From an uncultured Verrucomicrobiota bacterium (GTDB lineage: Bacteria > Verrucomicrobiota > Kiritimatiellia > Kiritimatiellales > Tichowtungiaceae), in assembly GCA_903826865.1 (NCBI GenBank), contig CAIKGD010000011.1, forward strand, positions 1-51,009: 51,009 nt of DNA, written 5' to 3'. Positions 1,563-35,169 of this stretch are shown here, one piece after another. Positions within the stretch are counted from its first letter, which is position 1. Each line of letters opens with the position of its first letter. The position numbers were made by a program, and so were the translations under genes. Below the pieces are notes generated by a model. That model made no database searches. It saw nothing but the letters and a program-made list of their open reading frames with translations, and was not told the DNA's origin.

Positions 1563-4133
1563 TTATTCAAAAGCTAAAGGAAGCGCTGTTTGAGTTTTTC
1601 GTTCCATATGCAGCCAATCGGGGAGCTCTAGCAGAGGCATTCCTGCGAGTTCTTTTGGTTCCAGTTTGTGCAGGCCGCCGCCATATGTGCGACCGTTCTG
1701 GATAAGGTTTTTTGAGGTAAGCTGGTTAAGCATCAGATGAAGTGACTCGATCCTGTCAGGATGATCATCCAGTAATTTTTTGAGAAAAGGTCGAGGGTAG
1801 AGGTATATATAAACATTGGTCGCAATAGTCTTTGAGCGATTCAGGATAAACCTGAATGGATTTTCATTTTTACTGCTGGATCGTCCCATGTAGGTGGTAA
1901 GAAACAACGGCGGATCACGTTTTTCCTGCTGATACCACAGTTTGCGATGTGAACAGATGTAGCAATCGGCTATTCCGCGAGTAATGCCGTCTTGCATATA
2001 CGCCCACAATCCCGGCCATGATTTTTTGAGTTCTTCGGGAGGTAGGTCACAATCGAGAAGGTAGCGGAGGCGGTCAACGACAGGATCTCCGTTTCCAGCA
2101 TCTTCCACGACATCACTACTAGTCAGGTGACGAGGGCCGGGCAGGAGCGGTTTTAAAAACATCTTGGGGATGTCGTATTTTGCGATGGTATCTTTTCCAA
2201 TTACAAAAAATCCGTTCGCTCCGGTAGCTATGCCGCGTTTGATTTCGAAAATATCTCCGATCCTCACGGAGGTGGTATCTTGTGCAACGCCGAAGGTGTC
2301 GGCATTCCATTTCCCGGCCAGAGTTTGATCGTCCGAAGAGACTTCCTGAACCGCAGCGGGTTCTTCCAGGGTTCCACCGCTTGAAAAAATGAACGTATAG
2401 GATGCCGCCGGTTTCTGCTTGCGATAGGTGATGACGCACGACGAGACCAGCGCATCGTCAAACTGGACATGATCAGCCGAAAACCGGTGCACTTGCAGGA
2501 GGGTTACATGACGGATCAGATATTCGCGCAGAGCCCGGCCATAGTTGACGGACATAAATTCGCTCGGGATCAGCCAAGACGCTACGGCTCCGTCCGCCAG
2601 AAGCTGATGTGAGAGCAGAATGAAGTAAACATAGAGCCCGCTGAGCCCGCTGGTTCTGATTCCAAGTTCGCTTTCAACACGCCGTTGCAGGTCGATTTTA
2701 AGACCACCGGTCATGTGGTGGTGACGAACATAGGGAGGATTGGTGCACAGGCAGTTGAACCGTCCTGCCATTTCACGACGGGCGGAAAAGTTCAGAAAGT
2801 CATCTTGAACCACCTGATAAAGAGGACTCCACCCATCCCGAGCAACCTGTGCATATTCAGCGTCAATTTCGACACCAGTTGCGGATTCAACCGCACTGGT
2901 CGCCACTGTATCCAGTGCGGATAAAAATGCTCCCGAGCCGACCGCCGGCTCCAGAAAATCTATTTTGGCGGTGTGCAGGTAATTCTTTGCCTGTGCGACA
3001 ATTTCACGTGCCAAAAGAAAGGGAGTTGAGAATTGTCCGAAAGTATTCCGATCCTGCTGACTGCGCGACTGGTCTATCCGGAGTTGCTGTTCATGCCGGG
3101 CATTTTCTTTTTTTTCTTTTGAACCGGCATACACGGCGACCGTTTCATGGACTTTTTTTTTTGAATCCTTGGGGTTCAGGATCGTATCGAAATCGGAAAT
3201 CCGGTGTTCCCAAACCCAGTCGATTCCTTCGGAAGCCTCGTATCCGAGATAGCCCGGTTCAAAATATCCGCAGAGGAACAGCACAAAAGGGACTTTCCCG
3301 AACTGCTTTTTCAGCTGAGTAAACTTTTGAGCTTCTTCTTTGCGCCGCTTGTTTGTGTTTGTTGCATCGCCTGCTGATTTGGCTTCTACGAGGATTGGTA
3401 AAGTTCCCTCAGAATCTATGGGCTGGATAACGGCATCAATCGGGATATTAACCTTCCGTGCGCCTTTGCCGACGGCGATATTCAGTCGGAATGCAAAAGT
3501 TCCCGGATTCATTTTGGTTACATCTTCGATCTCTTTAGCCGGAACATATGCGTACCCCTTCGCTTCCAGCCATCTTTTCAAGGCGGTTAGTTGGCGCTGT
3601 TCCTGTGCATTGCGAATGATAGGATCCGCCGTCGCACCGCACAGCCGGTCTGCTACAACGGTTGCAGAACGTTCTATATCTGTTCTGCTGGGCGAATCTG
3701 CGGATTCCAACCACGGAAAAAGATCGCGATCTGCCAGTTCTAAGAGGATTTCGCAAATGCGATTTAGCTGCTCATCCAGTTCCTGGATATTCATTTTTGG
3801 CGGGATTCGTGGCGAACATCCAAGTTTGCCTTCCATAGCTGCTATCAGATTCTTGCCGACATAAGCCAACCCCATCAGCCGGTCGCGGGCAATCGGCGGA
3901 GCGCAAGTCATTCGGAGTATGGGAAGAATCTCGGGATGTTTTTTAAGAATATCGGGTGTGACAGATTTCAGGAATTTCGTTTGTTCGAGGGATTTAGTCA
4001 CACTCTTTGCTGTGATGGCGCGTTGCTTCCGGTAGGTTTCCGGAGCGAAACGAAGGAACCAATCATTATAAAAATCAATTGATTTCTCTACGTCGGCTTT
4101 CCAGAGATGAGTTTTGTCGGCGTTAATCGGCAT
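1563..4133 (-). CDS. fused XamI-type restriction endonuclease and N6-adenine DNA methyltransferase
   Basis: A single 856-residue polypeptide that appears to cut and to methylate DNA. The N-terminal third has XamI-family character (PILRMTCAPPIARDRL near residues 70-90) and a PD-(D/E)xK core: Asp in IPIDAVIQP, then EAK near residue 250. The second half is a TaqI-like gamma-class adenine methyltransferase: motif I LEPAVGSGAFL near residue 394, motif IV NPPY near 464, and a C-terminal target-recognition region ending in GLHKLEPKELAGMPL. The ATG at 4133 follows AGGAG; an upstream TTG at 4157 precedes that site and is less likely. XamI proper recognises GTCGAC with a separate methylase; the specificity here is unproven. 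It is a lone gene between an rrn operon and nadA, a typical place for an acquired R-M gene. Confidence 0.82.
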   Translation of the reverse strand: MPINADKTHLWKADVEKSIDFYNDWFLRFAPETYRKQRAITAKSVTKSLEQTKFLKSVTPDILKKHPEILPILRMTCAPPIARDRLMGLAYVGKNLIAAMEGKLGCSPRIPPKMNIQELDEQLNRICEILLELADRDLFPWLESADSPSRTDIERSATVVADRLCGATADPIIRNAQEQRQLTALKRWLEAKGYAYVPAKEIEDVTKMNPGTFAFRLNIAVGKGARKVNIPIDAVIQPIDSEGTLPILVEAKSAGDATNTNKRRKEEAQKFTQLKKQFGKVPFVLFLCGYFEPGYLGYEASEGIDWVWEHRISDFDTILNPKDSKKKVHETVAVYAGSKEKKENARHEQQLRIDQSRSQQDRNTFGQFSTPFLLAREIVAQAKNYLHTAKIDFLEPAVGSGAFLSALDTVATSAVESATGVEIDAEYAQVARDGWSPLYQVVQDDFLNFSARREMAGRFNCLCTNPPYVRHHHMTGGLKIDLQRRVESELGIRTSGLSGLYVYFILLSHQLLADGAVASWLIPSEFMSVNYGRALREYLIRHVTLLQVHRFSADHVQFDDALVSSCVITYRKQKPAASYTFIFSSGGTLEEPAAVQEVSSDDQTLAGKWNADTFGVAQDTTSVRIGDIFEIKRGIATGANGFFVIGKDTIAKYDIPKMFLKPLLPGPRHLTSSDVVEDAGNGDPVVDRLRYLLDCDLPPEELKKSWPGLWAYMQDGITRGIADCYICSHRKLWYQQEKRDPPLFLTTYMGRSSSKNENPFRFILNRSKTIATNVYIYLYPRPFLKKLLDDHPDRIESLHLMLNQLTSKNLIQNGRTYGGGLHKLEPKELAGMPLLELPDWLHMERKTQTALPLAFE

Positions 4134-4270
4134 TTCCAAGGTAACTCCTGTTAGCAAATAATGCCGTAAAGGCGGATGCGTGTCTACTTTCTGTTGATTT
4201 TGAATTCACACATGTCACGACACAGGAAAAACCGGACTGAAATGTTCCAAAGTTCGAGGAAACGGTGTTA

Positions 4271-5189: not shown

Positions 5190-5292
5190 TGGAATGTTGG
5201 AAGGGTGGAATATTGGAATAATGCTAATGTGAGCAGTTCGCTCTGGATTTACAGTCTCCAATGATCCAGTATTCCAGTGATCCATTATTCCA
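5190..5292. repeat. inverted pair of 8-bp-period arrays upstream of nifU
   Basis: The left arm has TGG at 5190, 5198, 5206 and 5214 (octamers TGGAATGT, TGGAAGGG, TGGAATAT, TGGAATAA). The right arm has CCA at 5258, 5266, 5274, 5282 and 5290. Reverse-complemented, the right arm reads as TGGAATAA, TGGATCAC, TGGAATAC, TGGATCAT, so the arms are inverted copies of one 8-bp-period pattern around a 35-base centre. It fills the nadA-nifU gap. Function unknown. Confidence 0.7.
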
Positions 5293-5303
5293 AGGGAGTT
5301 CAC

Positions 5304-6140
5304 ATGTGGGACTATACAGACAAAGTAAATGACCATTTTAAGAACCCGCGCAACGTCGGGAAAATTGAAAATCCGGACGGTACGGGAGAAGTCGGCTCGC
5401 TGGCGTGCGGCGATGCGCTGAAGCTGATGTTCAAGCTGGACGACAAGGGCCGTATCAAGGAAGCGAAATTCCAGACGTTCGGCTGTGCCAGCGCGATTGC
5501 CTCATCATCAGCGCTGACCGAAATGATCATTGGCAAGACGCTCGACGAAGTGGAAAAAATAACCAACAAGGATATTGCGGAATATCTCGGCGGACTGCCG
5601 AAGCAGAAGGTGCATTGTTCGGTGATGGGACGCGAAGCGCTCGAAGCGGCGATTTACAACTACCGCACCGGAAAAAAATGGGACAAGGAGCTTGAGGGCG
5701 AAGTGGTCTGTCATTGCTTCGGCGTGACGGATAAAGAAATCGAACGCGTCACCCGCGAAAATAATGTTCAAACCCTGGAAGCGCTGACCAACGCCTGCAA
5801 AGCGGGCGGCGGCTGCGGCAACTGTCTGCCGGATTTGCAGAAAATTATTGATCGTGTCCACGGAGAGATGGGCGCCGCTGCTGTACCGGAGAAAAAACCA
5901 CTGACGAATTTACAGCGGATCCATTTGATTGAAGACGTGATTGATCGCGAAATCCGCCCGGCATTGCGCCAGGACGGCGGCGACCTTGAACTGATTGATG
6001 TGGACGGCAATACGGTCAAGGTCCGCTTCCGCGGCGCCTGTTCCGGGTGCGTCGTATCGGCAATCACGCTCAAAGACGTCGTTGAAGCGCGGCTGAAAGA
6101 CAATGTGTCCGAGGACATCCGCGTCGAGGAGGTCAAATAA
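5304..6140 (+). CDS. nifU: Fe-S cluster assembly scaffold NifU (three-domain)
   Basis: Scaffold on which [Fe-S] clusters are built and then passed to apoproteins. The 278-residue protein has the complete NifU layout: an IscU-like domain (about residues 1-125; Cys in LACGDAL, FGCASAI and VHCSVMG), a central BFD-like [2Fe-2S] domain (VVCHCFGV and GGGCGNC), and a C-terminal Nfu domain with GACSGCVVS. ATG 5304 follows AAGGGAG at 5292-5298. Its stop overlaps the nifS start as TAATG, implying translational coupling. No nitrogenase genes are in the window, so general Fe-S supply (NadA, the ferredoxin ATPases, RlmN) is the likelier role. Confidence 0.95.
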   Translation: MWDYTDKVNDHFKNPRNVGKIENPDGTGEVGSLACGDALKLMFKLDDKGRIKEAKFQTFGCASAIASSSALTEMIIGKTLDEVEKITNKDIAEYLGGLPKQKVHCSVMGREALEAAIYNYRTGKKWDKELEGEVVCHCFGVTDKEIERVTRENNVQTLEALTNACKAGGGCGNCLPDLQKIIDRVHGEMGAAAVPEKKPLTNLQRIHLIEDVIDREIRPALRQDGGDLELIDVDGNTVKVRFRGACSGCVVSAITLKDVVEARLKDNVSEDIRVEEVK

Positions 6141-7297
6141 TGCGCACAGTCTATCTCGACAATAACGCCACCACGAAAATCGCGGACGAAGTACGCGATG
6201 CGATGATGCCTTTTCTAACCGATTTGTGGGGCAATCCCTCCAGCATGCACACTTTCGGCGGACAGGTTAAAAAATATATTGAGGCCGCCCGCGAGCAGGT
6301 CGCCGCGCTGATCGGCGCGGCCGATCCTCAGGAAATCACGTTTACCAGTTGCGGTTCAGAAAGCAATAATCTCGCCATTCGCGGCGGCGCGGAGGCGATG
6401 GACAAGCCGCCGCATATCATTACCTCCAAAGTTGAGCACGCCGCTGTTTCCGGTCCGTGCCACTACCTCGAAGATCGCGGCTTCCGCCTGACGAAGATTG
6501 ATGTGGATCAGCTCGGACGTCTCGATCTCGACGCCCTGCGGCGCGAAGTAAAAACCTCTAAAACGCTTACGTCCATCATGTGGGCGAACAACGAAACCGG
6601 CGTGATCTTTCCGGTCGGCCTGATCGGCGAAATGGTGCACGAGGCTGGCGGAATTTTTCATACCGACGCTGTACAGGCGGTCGGCAAAATCCCGATGAAA
6701 GTCAGCAGCCTGCCGGTTGATATGCTTTCGCTTTCCGGCCATAAACTGCACGCGCCCAAAGGGATCGGGGCCATCTACATCCGGCGCGGCACCAAGGTAA
6801 AACCGCTGGTGCTGGGCGGCCATCAGGAGCGCGGACGGCGTGCCGGTACGGAAAACGTGCCGTATATCGTCGGTCTCGGCGTTGCCTGCGCTCTGGCGGG
6901 TAAGCACCTCACCGAGGAAAACACGCGGGTTAAAGCGATGCGCGACCGGCTGGAGCAGGGCATTCTCGCGACGTGCCCCGGCGCACGCGTCAACGGCGAT
7001 CCGAAGCACCGCCTGCCCAACACCACCAACATCAGCTTCGATTTTATCGAAGGTGAGGCGATTCTCCTGATGCTCGACGACCGCGGCATCTGCACTTCAA
7101 CCGGCTCGGCCTGCGCCTCCGGCTCGCTGGAGCCGTCGCACGTTCTGCGCGCCATGAACGTGGCGGGTGTATCCGTCCACGGCTCGATCCGGTTCAGCTT
7201 CAGCACCTATAATACAGACGAAGATGTGGACGCGGTCTTGACCGAACTGCCGAAAGTTGTAAAACGTCTGCGTGAACTTTCACCCTTTGTGAATTAA
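6140..7297 (+). CDS. nifS: cysteine desulfurase NifS/IscS family
   Basis: PLP enzyme that takes sulfur from cysteine and hands it to NifU. The 385-residue protein shows YLDNNATTK at the N-terminus, the PLP-binding lysine in SGHKLHAPKG, and the catalytic cysteine loop STGSACASGSLEPSHVL, which marks the NifS/IscS group rather than SufS. It overlaps nifU by one base (TAATG), forming a two-gene Fe-S module. purC follows 16 bases later and may be in the same transcript. Confidence 0.95.
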   Translation: MRTVYLDNNATTKIADEVRDAMMPFLTDLWGNPSSMHTFGGQVKKYIEAAREQVAALIGAADPQEITFTSCGSESNNLAIRGGAEAMDKPPHIITSKVEHAAVSGPCHYLEDRGFRLTKIDVDQLGRLDLDALRREVKTSKTLTSIMWANNETGVIFPVGLIGEMVHEAGGIFHTDAVQAVGKIPMKVSSLPVDMLSLSGHKLHAPKGIGAIYIRRGTKVKPLVLGGHQERGRRAGTENVPYIVGLGVACALAGKHLTEENTRVKAMRDRLEQGILATCPGARVNGDPKHRLPNTTNISFDFIEGEAILLMLDDRGICTSTGSACASGSLEPSHVLRAMNVAGVSVHGSIRFSFSTYNTDEDVDAVLTELPKVVKRLRELSPFVN

Positions 7298-9253: not shown

Positions 9254-9919
9254 TCATGGCGCGGATTTGTAGTAGTGCAGAGTGAGAGCAATCTGCTGGG
9301 CGGCATAATCGGCAAGGATCGGGCCGGCCTCCTGCTCAACAAGCGGGGTGACGGTTTCGTCGTAGGTCATGTACGGCAGTCCGCCGACAAGAGACGGGAT
9401 GCCAAGGGTGAACCAGCTGACACCGTCGGTCCAGGTGCGGCTGATATCGGCATGTTTCACATTGAGGCGGACAGGAAGGTAGATGGTGTTGATGAGTTTG
9501 CCGGTTTTAGCGTCGTTGAGCGTTACGTCGATATCATACATGGCTCCGTAGTTGTAGCCGTGCCAGGTCGGGAACCAGATGAGGAAGCCGGGAAATTCAG
9601 CCCAGTAGTTCCAGCCGGAACCTCTGTATTTGGAGACGACGGAAATATTGGCGATGACATCAAATTTTCCGCTGCCGTCGTTCAAGACGGCAGTACCTTG
9701 CGCGTTATATTTGAGCAGGTCGCGGCCGATGGCGGCGATGAAGCGGTGGCCGTTGAGATCGGCGGCGTTAGCGCGGATGCCGATGGTCAGGCGTTCATCG
9801 AGTGCGACAATAGTTTTGTTGTGGTAGTTGTCCATGTTGGTGATGGTCATCGGATGGGTGCACCCGGTGATGGCCGCCGCCAGCACGAGGAGTGGTATAG
9901 TAAAACTTAATCTTTTCAT
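9254..9919 (-). CDS. lipoprotein of unknown function
   Basis: A 221-residue exported protein. It has a Lys/Arg N-terminus, a hydrophobic core and a lipobox LAAAITGC that places the lipidated cysteine at residue 20. The next residue is Thr rather than Asp, so outer-membrane sorting is more likely. The mature part is rich in aromatic residues (FPGFLIWFPTWHGYNYG) and has no motif I recognise. AGGAA precedes ATG 9919. It is transcribed alone, away from xerD, with a possible promoter at 9974-10002. Confidence 0.75.
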   Translation of the reverse strand: MKRLSFTIPLLVLAAAITGCTHPMTITNMDNYHNKTIVALDERLTIGIRANAADLNGHRFIAAIGRDLLKYNAQGTAVLNDGSGKFDVIANISVVSKYRGSGWNYWAEFPGFLIWFPTWHGYNYGAMYDIDVTLNDAKTGKLINTIYLPVRLNVKHADISRTWTDGVSWFTLGIPSLVGGLPYMTYDETVTPLVEQEAGPILADYAAQQIALTLHYYKSAP

Positions 9920-10066: not shown

Positions 10067-10405
10067 TTAATGCTCGCAGGCGTTTGTACCGGATTCCAAT
10101 GTTCCGGCCAGATAGTCTGCCGCCAGTGTTTCCGGTTCAGCGGAAGGAGCACCGACAACAACGGCAATGTTCTGTTCTGCAAACAGCTGTTGTGCTCTCT
10201 GTCCCATACCTCCGGCGATGATGACGTTCACTTTCTGTTCACCCAGCCATCGCGGCAGGACGCCCGGTTCGTGCGGCGGCGGAATCAGGTTTTCTCGTCC
10301 GGTGATTTTTTTTGCTGACTCGTCAACAGTCAGCACGGCGAAGGTTTCGCAGTGGCCGAAGTGCATGCACAATTTCTCATTGGCAACGGGTATGGCTATT
10401 TTCAT
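10067..10405 (-). CDS. NifX/NifB-family (COG1433) metal-cluster protein, second copy
   Basis: Small 112-residue protein of the dinitrogenase iron-molybdenum cofactor family: MKIAIPVANEKLCMHFGHCETF, then a GMGQRAQQLF motif. This ribonuclease-H-like fold carries Fe-Mo cofactor precursors in NifX/NafY and the Mo-Cu cluster in the Orange Protein (ORP). Cys and His residues in the N-terminal third (KLCMHFGHCETF) and C-terminal CEH could bind metal. AAGGAG lies 6-7 bases before ATG 10405. It is the last gene of the operon, 24 bases after the metallo-beta-lactamase-fold gene. A second family member is at 14997-15359. No nitrogenase structural genes are in view. Confidence 0.88.
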   Translation of the reverse strand: MKIAIPVANEKLCMHFGHCETFAVLTVDESAKKITGRENLIPPPHEPGVLPRWLGEQKVNVIIAGGMGQRAQQLFAEQNIAVVVGAPSAEPETLAADYLAGTLESGTNACEH

Positions 10406-10429
10406 TCACAGTCTCCTTTTGATGTTTGT

Positions 10430-11263
10430 TTATATTTCGATAATGGTTCCGGACGGGCACGTTTCGCACTTCCCCGGAAATTCATTCCATAAACGCAATG
10501 CGGCGGCGAATCCGGTGCAGTGGCAGGGGATCAGCCGTTGAATATTGAAACGGCGTAACTCTTCAACGGTTCGCTCCATCCGTTCCGGCCCGGCGTTGAC
10601 CATATGCATTCCGCCGATGACGGTATGGATCGGGCGGTTGGCGGTGAGTGTCTGGATATAGCGCAATGTATTGATAACCCCGGAATGCGCACAGCCCAGA
10701 ACAACAACGGTTCCGGCTGCGGTTTCAATACAAGCGGCCTGATCGTCCGGAAGGTCATCCGGTGTCCGGCAGTCCGGGTCTTTGAAAAACGATCCGCCGG
10801 TATCTTCAAAATCTGTTGTCCGGGGAACCGGTCCGGTCAGAAACAATCCATCCGCAATCATTGTTTTTTCCTCGACCAGCACGATTTCCGCCAGTTCACC
10901 TGCCGTGATTTTATTGCCGGCGGTCATGCCGACTTCGCGGACTGAACCGTCCGGATTACGGGCGTATTTCAAGGAGAAGGTTTCCGGATGGGCGTAGAGA
11001 CGCGGGCAGTTCATTCCGTTCAGCGCAAAGGTCAGTCCGCCGGTGTGGTCATAATGTCCATGACTCAGCACGACAGCAGTTATTGTTTTCAGATCAACTT
11101 CAAGTTGTTCCGCATTGTGCCGCAGAGCCAGTCCCTGACCGGTGTCGAAGAGAATTTTGCTCCGTCCGCTTTCGATCAGGAAAGAAAGCCCGTGCTCCGC
11201 CAGCAGTTCGCGTTTTCCGGCGGTATTTTCAACCAGTACAGTGATTTTCATCGGATTACTCAA
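10430..11263 (-). CDS. metallo-beta-lactamase-fold hydrolase (COG1237-like)
   Basis: A 277-residue MBL-fold protein with the metal motif LSHGHYDHTGGL near residue 65 and later ligands in GCAHSGV and IPCHCTG. The family includes proteins annotated as dihydropterin-phosphate synthase-like (COG1237), but no firm reaction is known. TTG 11263 overlaps the previous gene's stop as TTGA with AGGAAC upstream, so a coupled TTG start is favoured; an ATG at 11251 is the alternative. COG1237 proteins often accompany COG1433 and Mrp-type ATPases in anaerobes. Confidence 0.85.
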   Translation of the reverse strand: MSNPMKITVLVENTAGKRELLAEHGLSFLIESGRSKILFDTGQGLALRHNAEQLEVDLKTITAVVLSHGHYDHTGGLTFALNGMNCPRLYAHPETFSLKYARNPDGSVREVGMTAGNKITAGELAEIVLVEEKTMIADGLFLTGPVPRTTDFEDTGGSFFKDPDCRTPDDLPDDQAACIETAAGTVVVLGCAHSGVINTLRYIQTLTANRPIHTVIGGMHMVNAGPERMERTVEELRRFNIQRLIPCHCTGFAAALRLWNEFPGKCETCPSGTIIEI

Positions 11264-12477
11264 CTGTTCCTTTTTAAAGCGGACGTGATCAGGTCAACCG
11301 CTTTTTCAAAAGCCTGTGCGGCGGTGGAGCTGCTGTGTTTTTGCATAAAGCTGTGTCCGGCATCGCCGCAAAGGCCGATGTCCGGATCAAGCGGAATACG
11401 GCCGAGAAAGGCGATATTGTATTTTTCAGCTGTCTTATATCCGCCGTCTTTGCCGAACAGGTGGACGGTTTCTCCGCATTTCGGGCAGGTGTAGCCGCTC
11501 ATGTTTTCCAGAATTCCAAGGATTGGGAGATTGACCTTGCGGCAGAACTGAACCGACTTGCGCACATCGGCGGCGGCGATCTCCTGCGGCGTGGTGACGA
11601 TGACCGCGCCGTCCGGCGATCCGATCAGTTGACAGACCGACAGCGGCTCGTCACCGGTGCCGGGCGGACAGTCTGTAATCAGATAATCCAGCTCGCCCCA
11701 GTTCACTTCCTTCAGCATCTGTTCGATAATTTTAATTTTCATCGGGCCGCGCATAATGACAGCCTGATCAGGGTGCTCCAGCAGAAAGCCGGTGGACATC
11801 AGCTTTATGCCGTCCGCCCTGACCGGTTCGATGGTGTCCCCGAACAATTCAGCATGCACCGCGGAAAGATTGAACAGTGTCGGGATGCTGGGGCCGTGCA
11901 GGTCGGCATCAAGCAGTCCGACTTTGAAACCTTTGCCGGAAAGCGACAGGGCCAGACCGGCGGCGACCGTGCTTTTGCCGACGCCGCCTTTTCCGGAGAG
12001 CACCACGATTTTATGTTTCACTCCGGACAGCCCGTTCGGTTCAGCCTGAACCGGCGGAACCGTTTCCTTGCGCGAGCTGCACTCTTTTTCGCAGGAGGAG
12101 CAGGCTTCCGGCGGACAGTGTTTTTTCCGATAGTCGGAAATCGTGGCGCGCAAGGTCGTGATCGCCAGCAGGGCGCAGTGTTTAGATTCATCGGCGAGTC
12201 CCGGAATCAGTGCGAGAACATCTGCGGGCTCCAGCGTAAACGCCACAGATTCCGGAGCGCCGGCAGCCAGTGTGCAGGCGGCGGTTCCGCAGGCGACCGA
12301 ATCACCGCAGCCGTCCGTTGTAAAGGTGCAGCGCGTGATCCGCTCCTCCTGAATTTTCACCCAGAATTCCATTGTGTCACCGCACGGCCCGGTGATGCGT
12401 GCGTTGCCGCCGGCACCTTTAAGCGGCCCGAATACGCCGGGCAGGGCGGTGTTTTCATCTAGTGCAGCAACTGACAT
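11260..12477 (-). CDS. NifU-like domain fused to Mrp/NBP35-type Fe-S carrier ATPase
   Basis: A 405-residue fusion. The first 110 residues resemble an IscU/NifU scaffold (TGPCGDTMEFW, TDGCGDSVACG, KHCALLAITTL). A Cys-rich linker follows (CPPEACSSCEKEC), then an Mrp ATPase with deviant Walker A GKGGVGKST, DADLHGPSIPT, DCPPGTGDE and the CPKCG cluster motif. Mrp proteins bind and transfer [4Fe-4S] clusters, so scaffold and carrier are joined in one chain. ATG 12477 follows GGGAG; an ATG at 12489 lies before that site. It overlaps the upstream ATPase gene by 19 bases and the downstream MBL gene by 4. Confidence 0.88.
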   Translation of the reverse strand: MSVAALDENTALPGVFGPLKGAGGNARITGPCGDTMEFWVKIQEERITRCTFTTDGCGDSVACGTAACTLAAGAPESVAFTLEPADVLALIPGLADESKHCALLAITTLRATISDYRKKHCPPEACSSCEKECSSRKETVPPVQAEPNGLSGVKHKIVVLSGKGGVGKSTVAAGLALSLSGKGFKVGLLDADLHGPSIPTLFNLSAVHAELFGDTIEPVRADGIKLMSTGFLLEHPDQAVIMRGPMKIKIIEQMLKEVNWGELDYLITDCPPGTGDEPLSVCQLIGSPDGAVIVTTPQEIAAADVRKSVQFCRKVNLPILGILENMSGYTCPKCGETVHLFGKDGGYKTAEKYNIAFLGRIPLDPDIGLCGDAGHSFMQKHSSSTAAQAFEKAVDLITSALKRNS

Positions 12478-13328
12478 AGTTTCTCCCATAAGGTTTGCAT
12501 GAATTGTGAAGCGATTCCGTTGTTATGTTCCACCACACTCTGCCCGTTAATCTGGGCTTCCGTAATGGATATGTCGTATGGAATTCTTGTTAAAACGGTT
12601 GCACCGGACGATGTCGCAGCGGCTTCAATGGTTGCCGTCATCGCCGGGTTGATGTCCCACTTGTTGACGCAGACAAAAACCGGGATTTTAAAGTGGCGGG
12701 TCAGTTCGATAACGCGCAGTAAATCATGCTGTCCGGAAAGTGTCGGTTCAGTAACCGCCAGCACCGCATCCGCGCCGGTAATCGAGGCGATAACCGGACA
12801 GCCGGTGCCGGGCGGACCGTCCGTCAGGAGCCAGTCGGCTTGACCCGCCGTTGCAAACTGTCTGGCCTGCTGCCGGACGGTGCTGACCAGTTTGCCGGAG
12901 TTTTCTGCGCCGATGCCGAGGCGGGCATGAACTATCGTGCCGAAGCGGGTGTTGGAAACAAACCACTCGCCGCAGAGACGATCCGGAAAATCAATCGCTT
13001 TGGCCGGGCAGAACGATACGCAAACACCGCAGCCTTCGCAGGACGGCAGTTCGATTTTAAATTTATCTCCGGAACTTTTGACGGCATCAAACCGGCAGAG
13101 ATCAGCACAGAGACCGCATCCGGTACAATCTGCTTTGCGGATGACGGCTTCGTGTCCGCTGTAAAAATCGTGCCGCTCGCGGATTTCCGGATTCAGAATC
13201 AGATGCAGATCGGCGGCATCAACATCGCAGTCGGCGAAAACCGCACGGTTCGCCAGCGCGGCAAACGAAGCCGTGATGCTGGTTTTGCCGGTTCCGCCTT
13301 TTCCGCTGATGATCACGAGTTCTTTCAC
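12459..13328 (-). CDS. MinD-superfamily P-loop ATPase with inserted ferredoxin domain (copy 2)
   Basis: A 289-residue protein with deviant Walker A GKGGTGKTS at the N-terminus, then a 2x[4Fe-4S] ferredoxin insert (CTGCGLCADLC and CEGCGVCVSFC, about residues 68-110), and DGPPGTGCP in the ATPase core (COG1149). In Desulfovibrio, two such ATPases belong to the Orange Protein (ORP) complex. The GTG start at 13328 overlaps the previous stop as GTGA. It is paralogous to the next gene upstream (13325-14149), and both are coupled, suggesting a heterodimer. Confidence 0.9.
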   Translation of the reverse strand: MKELVIISGKGGTGKTSITASFAALANRAVFADCDVDAADLHLILNPEIRERHDFYSGHEAVIRKADCTGCGLCADLCRFDAVKSSGDKFKIELPSCEGCGVCVSFCPAKAIDFPDRLCGEWFVSNTRFGTIVHARLGIGAENSGKLVSTVRQQARQFATAGQADWLLTDGPPGTGCPVIASITGADAVLAVTEPTLSGQHDLLRVIELTRHFKIPVFVCVNKWDINPAMTATIEAAATSSGATVLTRIPYDISITEAQINGQSVVEHNNGIASQFMQTLWEKLCQLLH

Positions 13329-14149
13329 CGGATTTCCTCCAGCAGGTTGCGCAGCGATGGTGCCAGTTCCGGCGCGGCGGACAGAATGCTTTCACCGCGC
13401 GAACAGGCTTCGGCGATTTTCCGCGATTCCGGAATTTGCAGCAGCAGGCGGATGTTTTCTCTTTTGCAATATTCGACCACCCGGTTATCGCCCGCATCGG
13501 ACCGGTTGATGATGACTCCGAACGGGATATTCAGCAGCCGGACGGTTTCGACCGCCAGCGTCAGATCGTGCAGACCGAACGGCGTCGGTTCGGTGACGAG
13601 GAGAATAAAATCCGAGCCTTTAACGGCGGTGATCATCGGACAGGAAGTGCCCGGAGGGCAGTCAATTAATACGGGCAGTTTCGGGTCGGCGGCTTTTTTC
13701 ACCGCGCGGATAACCGGCGGAGCCATCGCACGGCCGACATCCAGCCGGCCTTCCATGAACTGAATGTTTCCGCTCTGTCCCTGCCGGATGGTTCCGACAG
13801 AAAACGGAACTTCTGTAATCGCCTTTTCAGGACAGATTCGCGCGCAGCCGCCGCAGCTGTGGCACAGTTCCGTGAACACCAGCACGGTTTTACCGGCAAC
13901 CGCCAGCGCGTTAAACTGACAGATTGCCGCGCACTTTCCGCAGCCGGTACAGCGTGCAGAATCAACGGCGGGAACCGGAACGAAAACCCGCTTTTCGGTC
14001 TGACTTTTCAAGGACAGAAAAATCGAAGCGTTCGGCTCTTCCACGTCGCAGTCGAGCAGTTGCACCGGACCGTCCCAGACCTGCGCCAGCGCGACCGACA
14101 GAGTCGTCTTGCCGGTTCCGCCCTTTCCGGATGCGATGGCTATTTGCAT
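13325..14149 (-). CDS. MinD-superfamily P-loop ATPase with inserted ferredoxin domain (copy 1)
   Basis: A 274-residue paralogue of the downstream gene: GKGGTGKTT near the N-terminus, ferredoxin-like motifs CTGCGKCAAIC and CHSCGGCARIC, then DCPPGTSCP. ATG 14149 shares bases with the DUF89 stop (TAATG), which fixes the start; a longer frame would add 22 unlikely residues. Family knowledge places these as ATPases that bind two [4Fe-4S] clusters; the substrate is not known. Confidence 0.9.
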   Translation of the reverse strand: MQIAIASGKGGTGKTTLSVALAQVWDGPVQLLDCDVEEPNASIFLSLKSQTEKRVFVPVPAVDSARCTGCGKCAAICQFNALAVAGKTVLVFTELCHSCGGCARICPEKAITEVPFSVGTIRQGQSGNIQFMEGRLDVGRAMAPPVIRAVKKAADPKLPVLIDCPPGTSCPMITAVKGSDFILLVTEPTPFGLHDLTLAVETVRLLNIPFGVIINRSDAGDNRVVEYCKRENIRLLLQIPESRKIAEACSRGESILSAAPELAPSLRNLLEEIR

Positions 14150-15000
14150 TACCGGGTTCTCCAAAGGACATGTGTGCCGACCGGCAGATTGACCGATGCC
14201 GCCACGACCGGACATTTGGCTTTAAACAGGAAGAAGATGTTTTTCCCGCAATGGCTGAGCGTTTCAAAGTTGCCCTGACCTTTGGAAATAATCAGGTCAG
14301 CCGCCGCGAACGCTGTTTTAAATTCGTCACTGCAATCCTCAAGCAGGGTGCCGGGCGCATCCGATCCGTTCCCGATGACGCGGACGATGTCAGTGAGTCC
14401 GGCCGTGACGGCATCTTCCAGTGTGGCATCGTTGATGATCGGCATTCCGCGCACCGCGACGGTGACACGGTGTGTGCCGAGCTGTTCAACCAGCAGCCTG
14501 TCGAAGACGATTTCGCCGCAGTTGTCGGCCAGATAGAGAATTTGCTTTGCCTGCTTAACTTCAGCACGGAAAGCTTCCCGGTCGCCCTCCAGCGGTTTTT
14601 CAGCGGCATGGCGGATCGCGTCGTGAATCTCATGCTCGTTCAGTCCGCTTTTGGCACCCAGATCAATAATGTTTCCGGCGACGGCGAGGTTGGCTGCGGT
14701 CATCAGCGGATCGTTTGAAGTTTCAACCTGCGTGCGCAGGCCGGGCAGCAGCTGCAATGCCATTTGATTATGCTGCTCTTTCTGCATCCGGTACGGATCT
14801 TTGATGCCGGTGAGTTCGCGCAGACGCCGGTGAATCCGCTGAGCCAGCGCGGGCGGCGACAGACTCATATCCATTTCGCTCAGCCAGCGCAGCACGTCGC
14901 GGATGATCTGTTCATGAACCGCCGGATCATCCGAACTCATCCGGGCGGCATCCAGCGTCTGCCGCACAAAACAGGGAATGCAGTCAATTGAAGTATTCAC
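14149..15000 (-). CDS. DUF89 / ARMT1-like metal-dependent phosphatase family protein
   Basis: A 283-residue protein matching the short prokaryotic DUF89 class (COG1578): IDCIPCFVRQ at the N-terminus, DNCGEIVFDR, then SKGQGNFETL, which hold the metal and phosphate site. DUF89 enzymes are metal-dependent phosphatases proposed to clear damaged phospho-metabolites. The GTG start at 15000 overlaps the previous stop as GTGA, and its own stop is fused to the next start. I am not aware of DUF89 as a core Orange Protein gene, so its place here is unusual. It may process a phosphorylated ligand or simply be carried along. Confidence 0.88.
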   Translation of the reverse strand: MNTSIDCIPCFVRQTLDAARMSSDDPAVHEQIIRDVLRWLSEMDMSLSPPALAQRIHRRLRELTGIKDPYRMQKEQHNQMALQLLPGLRTQVETSNDPLMTAANLAVAGNIIDLGAKSGLNEHEIHDAIRHAAEKPLEGDREAFRAEVKQAKQILYLADNCGEIVFDRLLVEQLGTHRVTVAVRGMPIINDATLEDAVTAGLTDIVRVIGNGSDAPGTLLEDCSDEFKTAFAAADLIISKGQGNFETLSHCGKNIFFLFKAKCPVVAASVNLPVGTHVLWRTR

Positions 15001-15359
15001 ATCCAGTGTCCTTCGACATCCGCGTCCTGCGCGGCGGTCAGTTTCCCGGCCGCATATAAATCGAGTGCTTCCCGAACGGTTGCGGCGGTGCTTGGATAAA
15101 CCGCAATTTTCGAAGCGCTTAAAACCCGGAAGGCTTTCGGGCCGAAATGGCCGCTGATGACCGCCGCCGCGCCGGTCGAGGCCGCATTCTGCGCCGCCTG
15201 AATTCCCGCTCCCTGCGCCGCGTTCAGATTCTGTGAATTATCGGCCAGTTCAAATGTTCCGGTTTCTGTTTCATAGATGACAAACCGGGCGGCGCGTCCG
15301 AAGCGCGGATCGAGCGGCGCGTTCAGATCGTTTCCTGAAGTGGAGACGGCAATTTTCAT
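14997..15359 (-). CDS. NifX/NifB-family (COG1433) metal-cluster protein, first copy (ORP-like)
   Basis: A 120-residue COG1433 protein: MKIAVSTSGNDLNAPLDPRF, then GRAARFVIYE, and a Gly-rich GHFGPKAFRVL loop. It belongs to the family of NifX and of Desulfovibrio ORP, which carries a Mo-S-Cu cluster. Unlike the copy at 10067 it has no cysteine, so any metal binding would be non-cysteinyl, as in ORP. It follows the C_GCAxxG gene by one base and overlaps DUF89 by 4 bases. Confidence 0.88.
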   Translation of the reverse strand: MKIAVSTSGNDLNAPLDPRFGRAARFVIYETETGTFELADNSQNLNAAQGAGIQAAQNAASTGAAAVISGHFGPKAFRVLSASKIAVYPSTAATVREALDLYAAGKLTAAQDADVEGHWM

Positions 15360-15360
15360 T

Positions 15361-15699
15361 CTAATTTTCCTTAACCAATTTTTCCAGCAGTCCGGCGGCG
15401 GTGGCGACGCATTCGGAGCAGGGCATAATCCGGTTGCGGCGGATTTCCCGGCAGGCGGTATGCCCGGAAGCCTGGCGGCTGAACTTTTCTTTCAACGTTT
15501 CACGATGGGCTTTACCGGCCAGCTCGCAGGCGGCGTGCAGTGCACCGCAAAGTCCTTCCGGTGCCTGCCCGTGGCCGAATCCGGAAAAATGAATGTGATG
15601 ATCCGATTCCGGCTGTTTTTTATCTTTCCACGCCAGAGCAACGGCCTGTGCGCAGTTGCCCCGGCGGGTTTTGTAGTGTTCGACGGCGGACTGTTTCAT
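15361..15699 (-). CDS. C_GCAxxG_C_C family redox-type protein
   Basis: A 112-residue protein with the spaced cysteines of this family: RGNCAQAV near residue 15, then LCGALHAACEL, HTACREI and CSECV. The family is named for this pattern and is thought to bind a metal or to be redox active; no reaction is established. Its ATG overlaps the DUF5320 stop (ATGA), so the two are coupled. Confidence 0.8.
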   Translation of the reverse strand: MKQSAVEHYKTRRGNCAQAVALAWKDKKQPESDHHIHFSGFGHGQAPEGLCGALHAACELAGKAHRETLKEKFSRQASGHTACREIRRNRIMPCSECVATAAGLLEKLVKEN

Positions 15700-15953
15700 G
15701 ACTTGTTCTGGATTTCTCCGAGCCGCTGTTCAATCCGGGCCATCTGCTCTTTCAGTTCGCTGAGTTCAGTCGTTTGTGACGGCTGAACGGGTTGAAAAAA
15801 CCGGTTGCGGAATCCGAAACCCCGTCCGCATCCGCGTCCGAAGCCTCCGCCGGCGGTTTGAAAACCGGCTGTGTTGTTTCCGGCGCAGAAGCCTGCGCCG
15901 CGTCCGCTCATCGGGCCTGCGCCCGCCGGACCTGTTCTGTCTCCTCCGGGCAT
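15696..15953 (-). CDS. DUF5320 small Gly-rich protein
   Basis: An 85-residue protein with the typical start MPGGDRTGPAGAGPMSGRG, a Gly/Phe-rich middle (GRGCGRGFGFRNRFF) and a short C-terminal coiled coil (ELKEQMARIEQRLGEI). DUF5320 proteins commonly sit beside DUF134 and COG1433 genes; the function is unknown. AAAGGAGG is 7 bases before ATG 15953. Confidence 0.85.
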   Translation of the reverse strand: MPGGDRTGPAGAGPMSGRGAGFCAGNNTAGFQTAGGGFGRGCGRGFGFRNRFFQPVQPSQTTELSELKEQMARIEQRLGEIQNKS

Positions 15954-15977
15954 AGTATGCCTCCTTTTCTTTTAAAA

Positions 15978-16346
15978 TTATTGGCAGCCGCGCCCGTGGC
16001 CGTGCCCGCCGCGTCCGCACCGGCAGCCGCCGTGCGGTTCATCCGGCGTCTCCGGCAGGGCTGTTTCTTTTCCGCCTTCGACGCGGATGGCTTTGCCGTG
16101 CGTCAGCGCTTCAGCCACTTTTTTATGCGCCCGGGCGATGATCAGTCCGAAGGTCTGGCGTGAAACGCCCATCCGTTCAGCCGCCTGCTCCTGATAGAGT
16201 TCTTCGTAGTCGGCCAGCCGGATGGCTTCCAGTTCATCCGGAGCCAGTTCTACGGCCTCCAGCATCCGCAGCGGAATGCCCTGCGGCTTGAAATAAGTCA
16301 CCGGCGCGCAATGGCCGATCCGTCGTTCTTTTTGAGGTCTAGGCAT
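15978..16346 (-). CDS. DUF134 (UPF0251) helix-turn-helix protein
   Basis: A 122-residue DNA-binding protein. The DUF134 domain includes ELEAIRLADYEELYQEQAAE and a sigma-region-4-like HTH, MGVSRQTFGLIIARAHKKVA. The C-terminus is rich in Gly, Cys and His (GGCRCGRGGHGHGRGCQ), a possible metal-binding tail. As first gene of the operon, behind a perfect palindrome at 16357-16368, it is the natural candidate for a metal- or redox-responsive autoregulator. That role is inference. Confidence 0.87.
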   Translation of the reverse strand: MPRPQKERRIGHCAPVTYFKPQGIPLRMLEAVELAPDELEAIRLADYEELYQEQAAERMGVSRQTFGLIIARAHKKVAEALTHGKAIRVEGGKETALPETPDEPHGGCRCGRGGHGHGRGCQ

Positions 16347-16354
16347 AACCTGTT

Positions 16355-16370
16355 AATGGCATATGCCAAA
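16355..16370 (-). promoter_or_regulatory. palindromic operator candidate upstream of the DUF134 gene
   Basis: TGGCATATGCCA (16357-16368) is a perfect 12-bp palindrome, extended by A/T flanks. It lies 10 bases before the DUF134 start codon and about 75 bases before the divergent rnc start. Position and symmetry fit a dimeric repressor site. Confidence 0.55.
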
Positions 16371-16443: not shown

Positions 16444-17151
16444 ATGAAACAGCGGGCTTTTAAAACTCTGGAGAAACGCATTAAGTACCGGTTTAAGAAA
16501 ACGGCGTTGCTGGAGGCCGCATTGACGCACCCTTCTTTCCGTTATGAAAACGGGACGGTCAGCGAGGATAACCAGCGGCTGGAATTTCTGGGCGACGCGG
16601 TGCTCGGCCTGCTCGCCGCCGATGTGCTGATGCAAAAGAACCCGCAGGCGGCGGAGGGCGGGCTGACGAAATTAAAAAGCGCTATTACCTCCGGATCAGC
16701 GCTGGCGGAGCGGGCCCGTGCCATAGGGCTGGGTGAACACCTGCGGCTGGGTAAAGGCGAAGCGGCCAGCGGCGGCGCGGATCGCGGTTCAAATCTGGAG
16801 GATGCGCTGGAGTCACTGCTCGGAGCGGTCTGGCTCGACGGCGGACTGAAAGCCGCCCGGAAATTTTTTGAAAACCATATTTTCCAGACCGCAGTAAATT
16901 CTGAGCCGGTGATTGATAATCCGAAGGGCATGCTTCAGGAGTACGCCCAGAAGAAGGGCTATGCGGTTCCTGATTACCGGATCCTTGAGGCCAGCGGGCC
17001 GGATCACGCCCGGCGCTATTGTGTTGAAGTGACGGTTTCAACCTACGCTTTTCGCGGCGAAGGAACCAGCCGGCGGGAGGCCGAGCGGATGGCGGCCGAA
17101 AAAGCGGTCAACAGCATGATTCCGGATGCCGGACGGTCGCCTGCGGCCTGA
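16444..17151 (+). CDS. rnc: ribonuclease III
   Basis: Cuts double-stranded RNA in rRNA and mRNA processing. The 235-residue protein has the RNase III signature NQRLEFLGDAVLG near residue 42, the second catalytic acidic cluster in EDALESLLGA, and a C-terminal dsRNA-binding domain (from about PKGMLQEYAQKKG to EAERMAAEKAV). Length is normal. It is divergent from the Orange-Protein-type operon and followed by the flavodiiron gene. Confidence 0.95.
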   Translation: MKQRAFKTLEKRIKYRFKKTALLEAALTHPSFRYENGTVSEDNQRLEFLGDAVLGLLAADVLMQKNPQAAEGGLTKLKSAITSGSALAERARAIGLGEHLRLGKGEAASGGADRGSNLEDALESLLGAVWLDGGLKAARKFFENHIFQTAVNSEPVIDNPKGMLQEYAQKKGYAVPDYRILEASGPDHARRYCVEVTVSTYAFRGEGTSRREAERMAAEKAVNSMIPDAGRSPAA

Positions 17152-17309
17152 ATTTTTGTCTATGCGCATTTTGCAGAAAAAGGCGGCAGAAAATGTTTTT
17201 AGAAAGCCGATAGAATCGGTAGGCTTTCGTCCGGTTTTAATTTCAGCCCCGCGGCTGCTGTTCCGGAGCGGAACCGGCGGTAATGACGTATCAATTCAGG
17301 AATCATTTT

Positions 17310-19868
17310 ATGGGCGCGTTAAAAGTTAAGGAAAATCTCTGGTGGGTCGGGGTGCAGGATTTCGATATCCGCGTGTTCGATATCGTGATGTTCACCGAGT
17401 ACGGCACGAGCTACAACAGTTACATCCTGAAGACGGGAAAACACACGGTGCTGTTTGAAACGGTGAAGCTGAAGTTTTTTGATCAGTTCCTGAAAAACAT
17501 CAAAGAGGTCTGCGATCCGGCGGAGATTGATTACATCGTGGTGGATCACACCGAACCCGACCACGCCGGCTCGCTCGAAAAGCTGCTCGACTACGCGCCG
17601 AAAGCCAAAGTGCTCGCCTCCAATGTGGCGCTGAGCTATTTGAAAGATATCTGCAACCGTGAAATTCCCGGCAAGGCGGTCGCCGATGATGAAGTGATTG
17701 CGCTGGACGGCATGCATCTTCAGTTTCTTTCCGTGCCGTTTCTGCACTGGCCGGATTCGATCTACACTTACATTCCGGAACTCAAAACGCTGGTTACCTG
17801 CGACTCGTTCGGCTGTCACTATGCCGACGACAAGGTTTTCAACGATCTGATCGAAGGCGACTTCACACCGGCTTACCGGTATTACTTCAACTGCATCATG
17901 GGGCCGTTCAAGCCGTACGTGCAGTACGCGCTGGAGCGCATCAAACCGCTGGCGATTGAAACGATCTGCTGCGGCCACGGGCCGGTGCTGCGCAAAGATA
18001 TTCAGCACTACATCGGTCTCTACGACCAGTGGAGCAAACCGGAGAAAAGAGCAAAGCGCAGCAAACCCAAAGTGGTGACTGCGTTTGTCTCGGCTTACGG
18101 TTACAGCGAACGGCTGGCGCGCGAAATCAGCGCCGGTGTCCGTGATGTGATCGATGCCGACATCAGCCTGCGCGACATGGTCACCGAGGATCACGATAAA
18201 GTACTGGCCGAGATCAAAGAGGCTGACGGCTTTCTGCTCGGCACCTGCACCATCAACGGCGACGCGCTCCCGCCGATTATGAATCTGGCCATAGGTCTGA
18301 ACGGCATTACCGAAGGCGGCAAGGTCGCCGGCGTTTTCGGCAGTTACGGCTGGAGCGGCGAGGGGCCGGATCTGGTCATGAGCCGTCTGAGTCTGCTGCG
18401 CATGAGAACCGTTGAGCCTGCTTTCAAGACGGTCTTTAATCCGGAGAACAGGGATAAGCTGGCCAAGGCCCGCAAATACGGACAGAAGTTCGGCAAGAAA
18501 CTTCAGGAAGAGTGGGTGAAAATGAAAACTGATACGGCTGCAGGAAAGACCTTCTGGAAGTGCACGGTCTGCGGCGAAGTATTTGAAGGTGCGATGCCGC
18601 CGCAAAACTGCCCGGTCTGCGGCGCGGGGCAGGAGGCGTTCATTGAGTACACGCCCGAAGTTGTCACCTTCCGTGATGACCGCGACATGCGCGTCGCTGT
18701 CATCGGCTCCGGCGCAGGCGGTCTGGCCGCCGCCGAGGCGCTGCGTAAACGCAACGGCAAAGCGCAGATTGACCTCTATACCCGCGAAGAGCTTCTGCCG
18801 TATTACCGGCCTGTACTCACCCGTGCGCTGGCAGATAAAGTCGAGGACACCGAATACTTCATTCATCCGGAAAATTTTTATGAAACAAACCGGATCAGCC
18901 TGCACCTCGGCGCGACGGCTGAAAGCCTGTCGCCGCACGACAAATCGTTCCGGCTGGCGGACGGCAAAACGGTGTCGTACGACAAGCTGGTACTGGCGAC
19001 CGGCGCGTCCTGCTTTATTCCGCCGATTCAGGGCGCGCATCTGCCCGAAGTGGTGGCCTTGCGTGAAAAAACCGACTTCGACCGCCTGAACGGACTGCTC
19101 GCGGGCGGACCGAAAAAGATTTCAATTATTGGCGGCGGACTGCTCGGCCTCGAAACGGCCGATGCGCTCCACCGGCTCGGTCATCAAGTGACTGTGCTGG
19201 AAGCCTGTCCTTCGGTACTGCCGCGCCAGCTCGACCCGGACGGCTCACCGCTTTTCACCAAAATCATCCGGAAGAGCGGCATCGAAATTCATTACGGCGT
19301 TTATGTCGAAGAAATTCTCGGCGAAGGCAAAGTGACCGGAATCAAAACCCGCGCGCCGCAGGAAATTCCGGCGGATATCATTATCGTTTCTGCCGGCATC
19401 AAGCCGAACGTTGAACTGGCGAAAGAAGCCGGTCTGAAGGCTGATCGCGGCATTGAAGTCAACGAGCGGATGCAGACATCGGATTCCGATATCTACGCGG
19501 TCGGCGACTGCGCCGCCGTCCACGGGCGCTGCGGCGGGCTGTGGGAGCCGGCTTCACTGCAGGGCAATGTGGCCGGAGCCAACATCGCGGGCGACGACAA
19601 AACCTATTCGTGCAAACTTTACGGCGCGACGCTGGCCGCCTTCGGAACCTCGCTGTTTTCCATCGGTGATCTCGGTGCGGGCGACGGAAAATACGAACAG
19701 ATTCTGGAGTACAACGAGCTTGGCGGAAAATACCGGAAGATTTACTTCAAAGAAGGCAAGGTGGTCGGCGGCGTACTGCTTGGCGACGTGAAACTGACCA
19801 ATCCGCTGCTGCTCAGCGTTACCCGCGGCCTCGACACCGAAACCGCGCTGGAAATGCTAAAACTGTGA
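17310..19868 (+). CDS. multidomain flavodiiron protein (FDP-rubredoxin-NADH:rubredoxin oxidoreductase fusion, class D type)
   Basis: Predicted O2 and/or NO reductase carrying its own electron chain. The 852-residue protein has: a metallo-beta-lactamase diiron domain (about 1-250) with HTEPDH, FLHWPDS, TCDSFG and CCGHGP ligands; flavodoxin (about 252-395, starting TAFVSAYGYSERLA); a short rubredoxin (CTVCGEVFEG...CPVCG, about 414-440); then a two-dinucleotide FAD/NAD(P)H oxidoreductase (VIGSGAGGLAAAEAL, IIGGGLLGLETADAL, DIYAVGDCAAVHG). Established work groups such fusions as class D. ATG 17310 has AGGAA 8 bases upstream; an ATG at 17283 would add 9 residues. It lets an anaerobe consume O2 directly from NADH. 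Confidence 0.93.
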   Translation: MGALKVKENLWWVGVQDFDIRVFDIVMFTEYGTSYNSYILKTGKHTVLFETVKLKFFDQFLKNIKEVCDPAEIDYIVVDHTEPDHAGSLEKLLDYAPKAKVLASNVALSYLKDICNREIPGKAVADDEVIALDGMHLQFLSVPFLHWPDSIYTYIPELKTLVTCDSFGCHYADDKVFNDLIEGDFTPAYRYYFNCIMGPFKPYVQYALERIKPLAIETICCGHGPVLRKDIQHYIGLYDQWSKPEKRAKRSKPKVVTAFVSAYGYSERLAREISAGVRDVIDADISLRDMVTEDHDKVLAEIKEADGFLLGTCTINGDALPPIMNLAIGLNGITEGGKVAGVFGSYGWSGEGPDLVMSRLSLLRMRTVEPAFKTVFNPENRDKLAKARKYGQKFGKKLQEEWVKMKTDTAAGKTFWKCTVCGEVFEGAMPPQNCPVCGAGQEAFIEYTPEVVTFRDDRDMRVAVIGSGAGGLAAAEALRKRNGKAQIDLYTREELLPYYRPVLTRALADKVEDTEYFIHPENFYETNRISLHLGATAESLSPHDKSFRLADGKTVSYDKLVLATGASCFIPPIQGAHLPEVVALREKTDFDRLNGLLAGGPKKISIIGGGLLGLETADALHRLGHQVTVLEACPSVLPRQLDPDGSPLFTKIIRKSGIEIHYGVYVEEILGEGKVTGIKTRAPQEIPADIIIVSAGIKPNVELAKEAGLKADRGIEVNERMQTSDSDIYAVGDCAAVHGRCGGLWEPASLQGNVAGANIAGDDKTYSCKLYGATLAAFGTSLFSIGDLGAGDGKYEQILEYNELGGKYRKIYFKEGKVVGGVLLGDVKLTNPLLLSVTRGLDTETALEMLKL

Positions 19869-35133: not shown

Positions 35134-35140
35134 GAACGGC

Positions 35141-35169
35141 ATTATGCACGAACGGTTCATTGCACGCAA
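35141..35169 (-). promoter_or_regulatory. promoter of serpin gene (leaderless arrangement)
   Basis: On the minus strand: TTGCGT (35164-35169), 17-base spacer, CATAAT (35141-35146), seven bases before the serpin ATG. Confidence 0.5.

Follow-up and report, generated by a model that had tools for sequence, protein, structure and literature searches.

The operon and its gene families

We analysed a 51,009-nt stretch of DNA (the window) from an uncultured Verrucomicrobiota bacterium of the Tichowtungiaceae, which is one contig (CAIKGD010000011.1) of a 2.64-Mb, 98% complete genome, and within it a run of ten genes reading from position 16346 down to 10067. All ten open reading frames (ORFs), as called, are co-directional on the minus strand and tightly packed, and Pfam recovers every family that the first-pass annotation had named. 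The features are as follows.

16357–16368, no strand: probable DUF134 operator, palindrome TGGCATATGCCA, its centre 16 bp upstream of the DUF134 ATG
15978–16346, minus: DUF134 helix-turn-helix protein, 122 aa (Pfam PF02001, E=1.5e-22; sigma70_r4-like helix-turn-helix)
15696–15953, minus: DUF5320, Gly-rich small protein, 85 aa (Pfam PF17253, E=7.5e-21)
15361–15699, minus: C_GCAxxG_C_C putative redox-active protein, 112 aa (Pfam PF09719, E=5.7e-10)
14997–15359, minus: COG1433a, Orange-Protein-like, 120 aa (PF02579, Nitro_FeMo-Co; 2WFB, E=2.6e-19)
14149–15000, minus: DUF89/ARMT1-like metal-dependent phosphatase of the AF1104 and PH1575 subfamily, 283 aa (Pfam, 8.9e-72)
13325–14149, minus: ferredoxin-MinD ATPase 1 (FdMinD1), 274 aa (Pfam, CbiA/ParA and two Fer4 motifs)
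12459–13328, minus: ferredoxin-MinD ATPase 2 (FdMinD2), 289 aa (Pfam, CbiA/ParA and two Fer4 motifs)
11260–12489, minus: fusion of NifU (IscU-type scaffold) and Mrp/NBP35 in one polypeptide, 409 aa (NifU_N, 3.8e-14; NUBPL/Mrp, 3.9e-97)
10430–11263, minus: MBL-fold hydrolase of the 2P4Z/TM1679 type (Lactamase_B, 3.5e-16; start TTG at 11263 or ATG at 11251)
10067–10405, minus: COG1433b, free-standing MrpORP-type Orange Protein (ORP) domain, 112 aa (NF041136 positions 265–365, E=6.2e-40)

Neighbouring genes overlap by 1–4 nt at four junctions (DUF5320/C_GCAxxG, COG1433a/DUF89, DUF89/FdMinD1 and FdMinD1/FdMinD2). Between FdMinD2 and NifU-Mrp the overlap is 19 or 31 nt, according to the start chosen, and NifU-Mrp overlaps the MBL gene by 4 nt only if the latter begins at the TTG, the ATG lying 8 nt past the NifU-Mrp stop. 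The genes had been described as nearly all coupled by overlapping stop and start codons; they do form a tight directon, but the wording was slightly generous in view of these start-dependent overlaps, a 1-nt gap between C_GCAxxG and COG1433a, and gaps of 24 nt each between DUF134 and DUF5320 and between MBL and COG1433b. The arrangement is not a matter of chance, because its order recurs in related genomes and in other phyla. Scans for sigma-70 promoters and terminators gave nothing clearly beyond shuffled controls.

The two COG1433 genes (Nitro_FeMo-Co, Pfam E=2.7e-21 and 2.3e-17) are the only ones in the genome. The best solved relative of COG1433a is the ORP of Desulfovibrio gigas (2WFB), and a-type proteins conserve, in alignment, DxRFGRA, NLNA-QGAGIQ, GPKA and a terminal HW. 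COG1433b has the motif CMHFGHCE and, at the C terminus, CEH; the b-type alignment conserves HFGHC, PPxHEPG and C-x-H, and for MrpORP the motifs CXHFGHCE and CDH have been proposed to ligate a 3Fe-4S cluster (PMC6345978). Each of the ATPases has two 4Fe-4S motifs (CxxCxxCxxxC pairs), the pair in FdMinD1 being placed between Walker A and the remaining ATPase. The MBL-fold protein has relatives in 2P4Z and TM1679, and the C_GCAxxG_C_C protein had no solved relative at E<=1.

In the NifU-Mrp fusion, C36, D38, C61, H104 and C105 align with the scaffold ligands of the full NifU that the window encodes as part of a NifU-NifS pair (5277–7297; NifU by Pfam, NifS named by eye), with 22% identity over the aligned part. 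This is the C, D, C, H, C set of the IscU/NifU N-terminal scaffold, from which the fusion differs in its divergent sequence and in being joined to a carrier ATPase. That second half has a deviant Walker A, SGKGGVGKST, which fits the GKGGhGK[ST] of Mrp/NBP35 (ApbC) carriers, and a CXXC motif, CPKC (in YTCPKCGE). Its best solved relative is the iron–sulfur (Fe–S) assembly factor CFD1 (6G2G, E=1.7e-61), and it is the genome's only true Mrp/NBP35, scoring 326.6 bits where the next match scores 53.4. The NifU-Mrp fusion is found also in loci L124 (candidate division FCPU426) and L192, while other relatives have NifU and Mrp as separate genes or an Mrp-ORP fusion as in MrpORP (L043, L048 with 563 bits, and L058), and in L137 NifU, Mrp and the ORP domain share a single 557-aa chain. 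These fusions argue that the products of 11260–12489 and 10067–10405 are one functional unit.

The operon is plainly kin to the ORP/MrpORP system of Desulfovibrio and would work in a like manner. Like the ORP complex of Desulfovibrio vulgaris (orp1/orp2 operons, DVU2103-2109), it has an Orp3/Orp4-like ferredoxin-MinD pair, an ORP-like COG1433 protein, an Mrp and a CXHFGHCE ORP domain. In contrast to that complex, its Mrp is fused to NifU and not to ORP, the ORP domain has a gene of its own, and DUF89, MBL, DUF5320, C_GCAxxG and DUF134 are added. A third COG1433 gene is missing from the window, as is a sigma-54 activator; relatives L037, L040 and L042 have both. None of the ten operon genes encodes such an activator, and DUF134 leads instead. 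Both domains of MrpORP (NF041136; DVU2109/Dde3202) are present in two proteins (358.6 and 137.6 bits), split and with a swapped fusion, each under the 450-bit equivalog cut-off. We therefore file the operon as a variant of ORP/MrpORP, since the window lacks two of that system's defining features, the MrpORP fusion and sigma-54 control. The kinship proposed from the first reading is borne out by the 2WFB and NF041136 matches and the aligned motifs, and the suggested set of genes to build (NifU), carry (Mrp and the ORP domains) and regulate (DUF134) is likewise supported.

In genus relatives the stretch between MBL and COG1433b holds two further genes that the window lacks, one for a glutaredoxin-like protein of 84 aa and one for a flavodoxin-like protein with a pair of 4Fe-4S motifs (L031:4150-5209, L032:11720-12774). 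An ACR3-like permease fused to two CBS domains lies in or beside the cluster of further relatives (L037:6054-7403, L042:6825-8168, L036:10790-12124), and its substrate could bear on the function of the cluster.

DUF89 and its linkage to the ORP-type module

The AlphaFold2 model of the DUF89 protein (predicted local distance difference test score, pLDDT, 90.6) resembles 2G8L (PH1575) and 2FFJ (AF1104) with template-modelling (TM) scores of 0.91 and 0.85, respectively. With these two phosphatases it shares both catalytic aspartates and the N-terminal CxxC and KC; unlike them, it is operonic with Fe–S genes. D159 and D191 are invariant in 22 aligned homologues and match by motif D623 and D659 of PANK4, which are essential for phosphatase activity (PMC9352595), although the kinase domain of PANK4 has no counterpart here. 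The score against the NCBIfam damage-control phosphatase model is 190.7 bits, under its cut-off of 440. From sequence and model, the protein is most likely an active Co/Ni/Mg-type metal-dependent phosphatase. C7, C10 and C263 (the CxxC and KC) are also invariant in the 22 proteins and in the archaeal structures, and are a possible extra metal or Fe–S site; as they are kept in linked and unlinked copies alike, they are a trait of the subfamily and not of the operon.

The first-pass annotation had treated DUF89 and MBL as outsiders to the core set; both, however, recur in the cluster of relatives. Of the 58 related genomes, DUF89 is present in 20 and COG1433 in 28, and in most of the 20 DUF89 lies inside the cluster, typically between COG1433a and FdMinD1. 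We also scanned GTDB with a profile, taking a single genome for each species, and so collected 80 DUF89 loci, chosen on DUF89 sequence and nothing else, that span many phyla. At least one of COG1433, FdMinD, NifU and Mrp is found in the flank of 48 of them and two or more in 35, with COG1433 present in 43 flanks and FdMinD in 28. The earlier proviso that no relative might carry DUF89 in this operon thus does not hold. Over all loci examined, the order COG1433-DUF89-FdMinD occurs on one strand at 18. In a partly overlapping set of 123 DUF89 copies, which includes loci chosen for proximity, a core gene lies on the same strand and at most three genes away for 65. Among other neighbours of DUF89, DUF5320 is the most frequent (21 of the 137 that were scanned).

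Across 241 genomes of the phylum, 69 have both DUF89 and COG1433, 11 DUF89 alone, 37 COG1433 alone and 124 neither, an odds ratio of 21, uncorrected for ancestry. On a tree built from 101 DUF89 proteins, copies with and without the linkage are mixed, and the state changes at least 17 times. The partnership of DUF89 with the ORP-type module thus recurs without being obligatory: DUF89 cannot be strictly required, because clusters without it and standalone copies exist.

At 22 of the 80 loci (seen at L071, L076, L091, L093, L096, L104, L110, L111, L124, L138 and L142), DUF89 and the ORP module have beside them a radical-SAM protein that bears a GPVPSRR motif and matches known families only weakly; none lies near the window's operon. 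A single ORF (L124:4336-5742) joins a coenzyme A (CoA)-binding domain to DUF89, whereas apparent DUF89 fusions in L181, L182 and L185-L187 were rejected as frame extensions without a second Pfam domain.

DUF134 and its predicted operator

The perfect palindrome TGGCATATGCCA, with a CATATG core, occurs upstream of DUF134 and nowhere else in the genome. TGAGCATATGCTCA, or a form close to it, precedes other DUF134 genes as well, its centre mostly 16 or 28–35 bp before the start codon. At loci with gene calls, a near-palindromic CATATG site lies no more than 200 bp upstream of 15 of 26 DUF134 genes, compared with 15 of 1762 other ORFs. A further set of 30 loci, drawn by DUF134 and not by DUF89 and with a few loci common to the first, bears this out: 12 have a CATATG site within 60 bp, and more have one within 155 bp. 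At L080, L085 and L125, where DUF89 opens the operon, the site stands about 75–105 bp before DUF89. The CATATG palindrome is thus a probable, sequence-predicted DUF134 operator. A second TGAGCATATGCTCA in the window's own genome (C48:92057) was discarded, as it falls inside a phosphoenolpyruvate carboxykinase-like reading frame. Besides positions 16357–16368 of the window, CATATG-core palindromes upstream of DUF134, or of a leading DUF89, were seen at L031, L035, L036, L041, L044-L046, L050, L051, L080, L082, L085, L096, L125 and L146.

DUF134 is fused to COG1433 in 7 of the 30 DUF134-drawn loci of relatives, an indication that the regulator gets its signal from the COG1433 domain. Single-protein fusions of this kind were noted at L163, L165, L166, L167, L169, L175, L177 and L199. 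Taken together, the conserved palindrome before DUF134 and these fusions point to DUF134 as probably the cluster-sensing regulator of the operon. No description of a DUF134 operator was found in the open-access literature searched, which is not proof of novelty.

Proposed function and its alternatives

MrpORP, the closest relative with biochemistry behind it, binds a 4Fe-4S cluster on its CXXC and a putative 3Fe-4S cluster in its ORP domain, and experiments showed that it passes Fe–S clusters to Orp3, Orp4 and aconitase (PMC6345978). Isolated D. gigas ORP, on the other hand, carries the molybdenum–copper–sulfur (Mo-Cu-S) cluster S2MoS2CuS2MoS2 (cited in PMC6345978). We found no match to MoaA (PF06463), ModA (TIGR01256; one uptake type, the WtpA/TupA type not being searched) or nitrogenase (PF00148) in the window's own genome, while most control genomes were positive for MoaA and ModA, and four for PF00148. 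Since, in addition, the only two COG1433 genes are both operonic, a role for molybdenum in this organism is unlikely. The first-pass annotation had envisaged a metal-sulfur cofactor of unknown kind. The case for such a cofactor, or for one containing molybdenum, is weakened, and ordinary Fe–S clusters are the simpler cargo, given the lack of detectable molybdenum and nitrogenase genes and an operon that holds the genome's only true Mrp.

On the composition of the operon, the homologies, the ligand and catalytic residues, the recurrent linkage and the operator motif, we consider it probable that this is an ORP/MrpORP-type module which assembles and delivers Fe–S clusters, iron presumably being the metal, in an anaerobe apparently without molybdenum use, with DUF134 as the sensor and the DUF89 phosphatase clearing a phosphometabolite. 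In the proposed direction of flow, the NifU domain would build the cluster, drawing its sulfur from the NifS/NifU system whose genes lie 4 kb away, and the Mrp half would carry it on CPKC and hand it on under the control of ATP, FdMinD1 and FdMinD2 being among the putative recipients. A cluster, or metal sulfide, may be held or buffered by COG1433b, with its CXHFGHCE, and by COG1433a. The predicted site of DUF134 is the CATATG palindrome in front of the operon, and the protein might sense cluster status, probably via COG1433. DUF89 would remove an interfering or damaged phosphometabolite from the process, its substrate being the point of which we are least sure. One lead is 4'-phosphopantetheine, because the human DUF89 protein PANK4 acts on it (PMC9352595), a CoA-binding domain is joined to DUF89 in a single case, and CoA-disulfide-reductase-like neighbours occur in relatives; that the substrate is a phosphorylated thiol of the phosphopantetheine kind is nevertheless a long shot. 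A bolder version, which we offer tentatively and with considerable doubt, would make DUF89 a dedicated step of metallocluster biogenesis in many anaerobic phyla, in which phosphate is taken off a ligand, a thiol carrier or a regulator that building or loading the cluster requires. In this version DUF134 would be a repressor at the CATATG palindrome that senses the metallocluster by way of a COG1433 domain, fused to it in some relatives.

Several observations weigh against the Fe–S delivery module with DUF89 as its partner. COG1433a, which would share in holding the cluster, has no cysteine at all, and the molybdenum search took in a single type of uptake. Loci L035, L041, L050 and L051 carry the cluster without DUF89, and very close DUF89 homologues, L069 and L070, lie away from it. 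The Fisher test on co-occurrence ignores shared ancestry, and both families may merely track anaerobic life.

Instead of delivery, the module might mainly serve iron-sulfide storage or detoxification and redox homeostasis, in an IssA-like manner, with DUF89 and MBL repairing metabolites damaged by sulfide or metal stress. The thioferrate protein IssA of Pyrococcus, which PMC6345978 mentions, presumably belongs to the COG1433 fold family, as do the window's COG1433 proteins. Relatives do add genes that would suit such a role: a CoA-disulfide-reductase/rhodanese, the ACR3-like CBS permease, the glutaredoxin-like and flavodoxin-ferredoxin proteins and a distant MbfA-like membrane protein. The CoA-binding fusion in L124 and the activity of human PANK4 on 4'-phosphopantetheine (PMC9352595) also fit. 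NifU and Mrp, however, are assembly and transfer proteins, the extra genes of relatives are absent from the window and the CoA link is one fusion only, so that we regard this alternative as unlikely, if with a real chance of being right.

That DUF89 is a co-transcribed passenger with no functional tie to the metal genes would agree with the standalone copies and the DUF89-less clusters. It appears rather improbable to us, as the position of DUF89 is constant in many phyla, linked and unlinked copies are interspersed on the tree, and in L080, L085 and L125 DUF89 itself leads the operon behind a DUF134-type palindrome. Less probable still is an operon that makes or moves an ORP-type Mo-Cu-S or nitrogenase-like heterometal cofactor: D. 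gigas ORP is the nearest solved chain to COG1433a, and NifB-NifX-like fusions occur elsewhere in the genomes of relatives, but either cofactor has to contend with the genome's lack of detectable MoaA, ModA and nitrogenase and with COG1433 genes confined to the operon. A role in cell division or in positioning of the ParA/MinD type, the one originally put forward for the ORP complex of Desulfovibrio (described as putatively cell-division-related; PMC6345978, PMC3897727), can point to the MinD-like ATPases. These, however, bear two 4Fe-4S motifs each and are found together with NifU and Mrp in an operon without a division gene, and such a role is very improbable.

Around the operon, a divergent rnc (named by eye) begins upstream at 16444, and a same-strand ORF without a Pfam match lies downstream (9254–9919). 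An adjoining 861-aa single chain (17283–19868) combines flavodiiron-type beta-lactamase, rubredoxin-like and NADH:rubredoxin-type reductase domains. Elsewhere in the window, a XamI-type restriction endonuclease and an Eco57I-type methylase are fused in one protein (1563–4157), and a bacterial serpin (protease inhibitor) is encoded at 34015–35169 (E=2.8e-111).

We found no link of DUF89 to ORP, COG1433 or FeMo-cofactor proteins in the open-access literature searched, which likewise does not prove novelty. New here are the palindrome before DUF134 genes, predicted to be an operator, and the frequent fusion of DUF134 to COG1433. Prokaryotic DUF89 proteins have solved structures but no pathway in the literature searched, and the linkage to ORP clusters gives a process in which to hunt for their substrate. 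For the DUF134 family, which had no assigned function, there is now a predicted operator and a predicted signal. The absence of detectable molybdenum genes in this organism suggests, in turn, that ORP-like proteins need not be molybdenum proteins.

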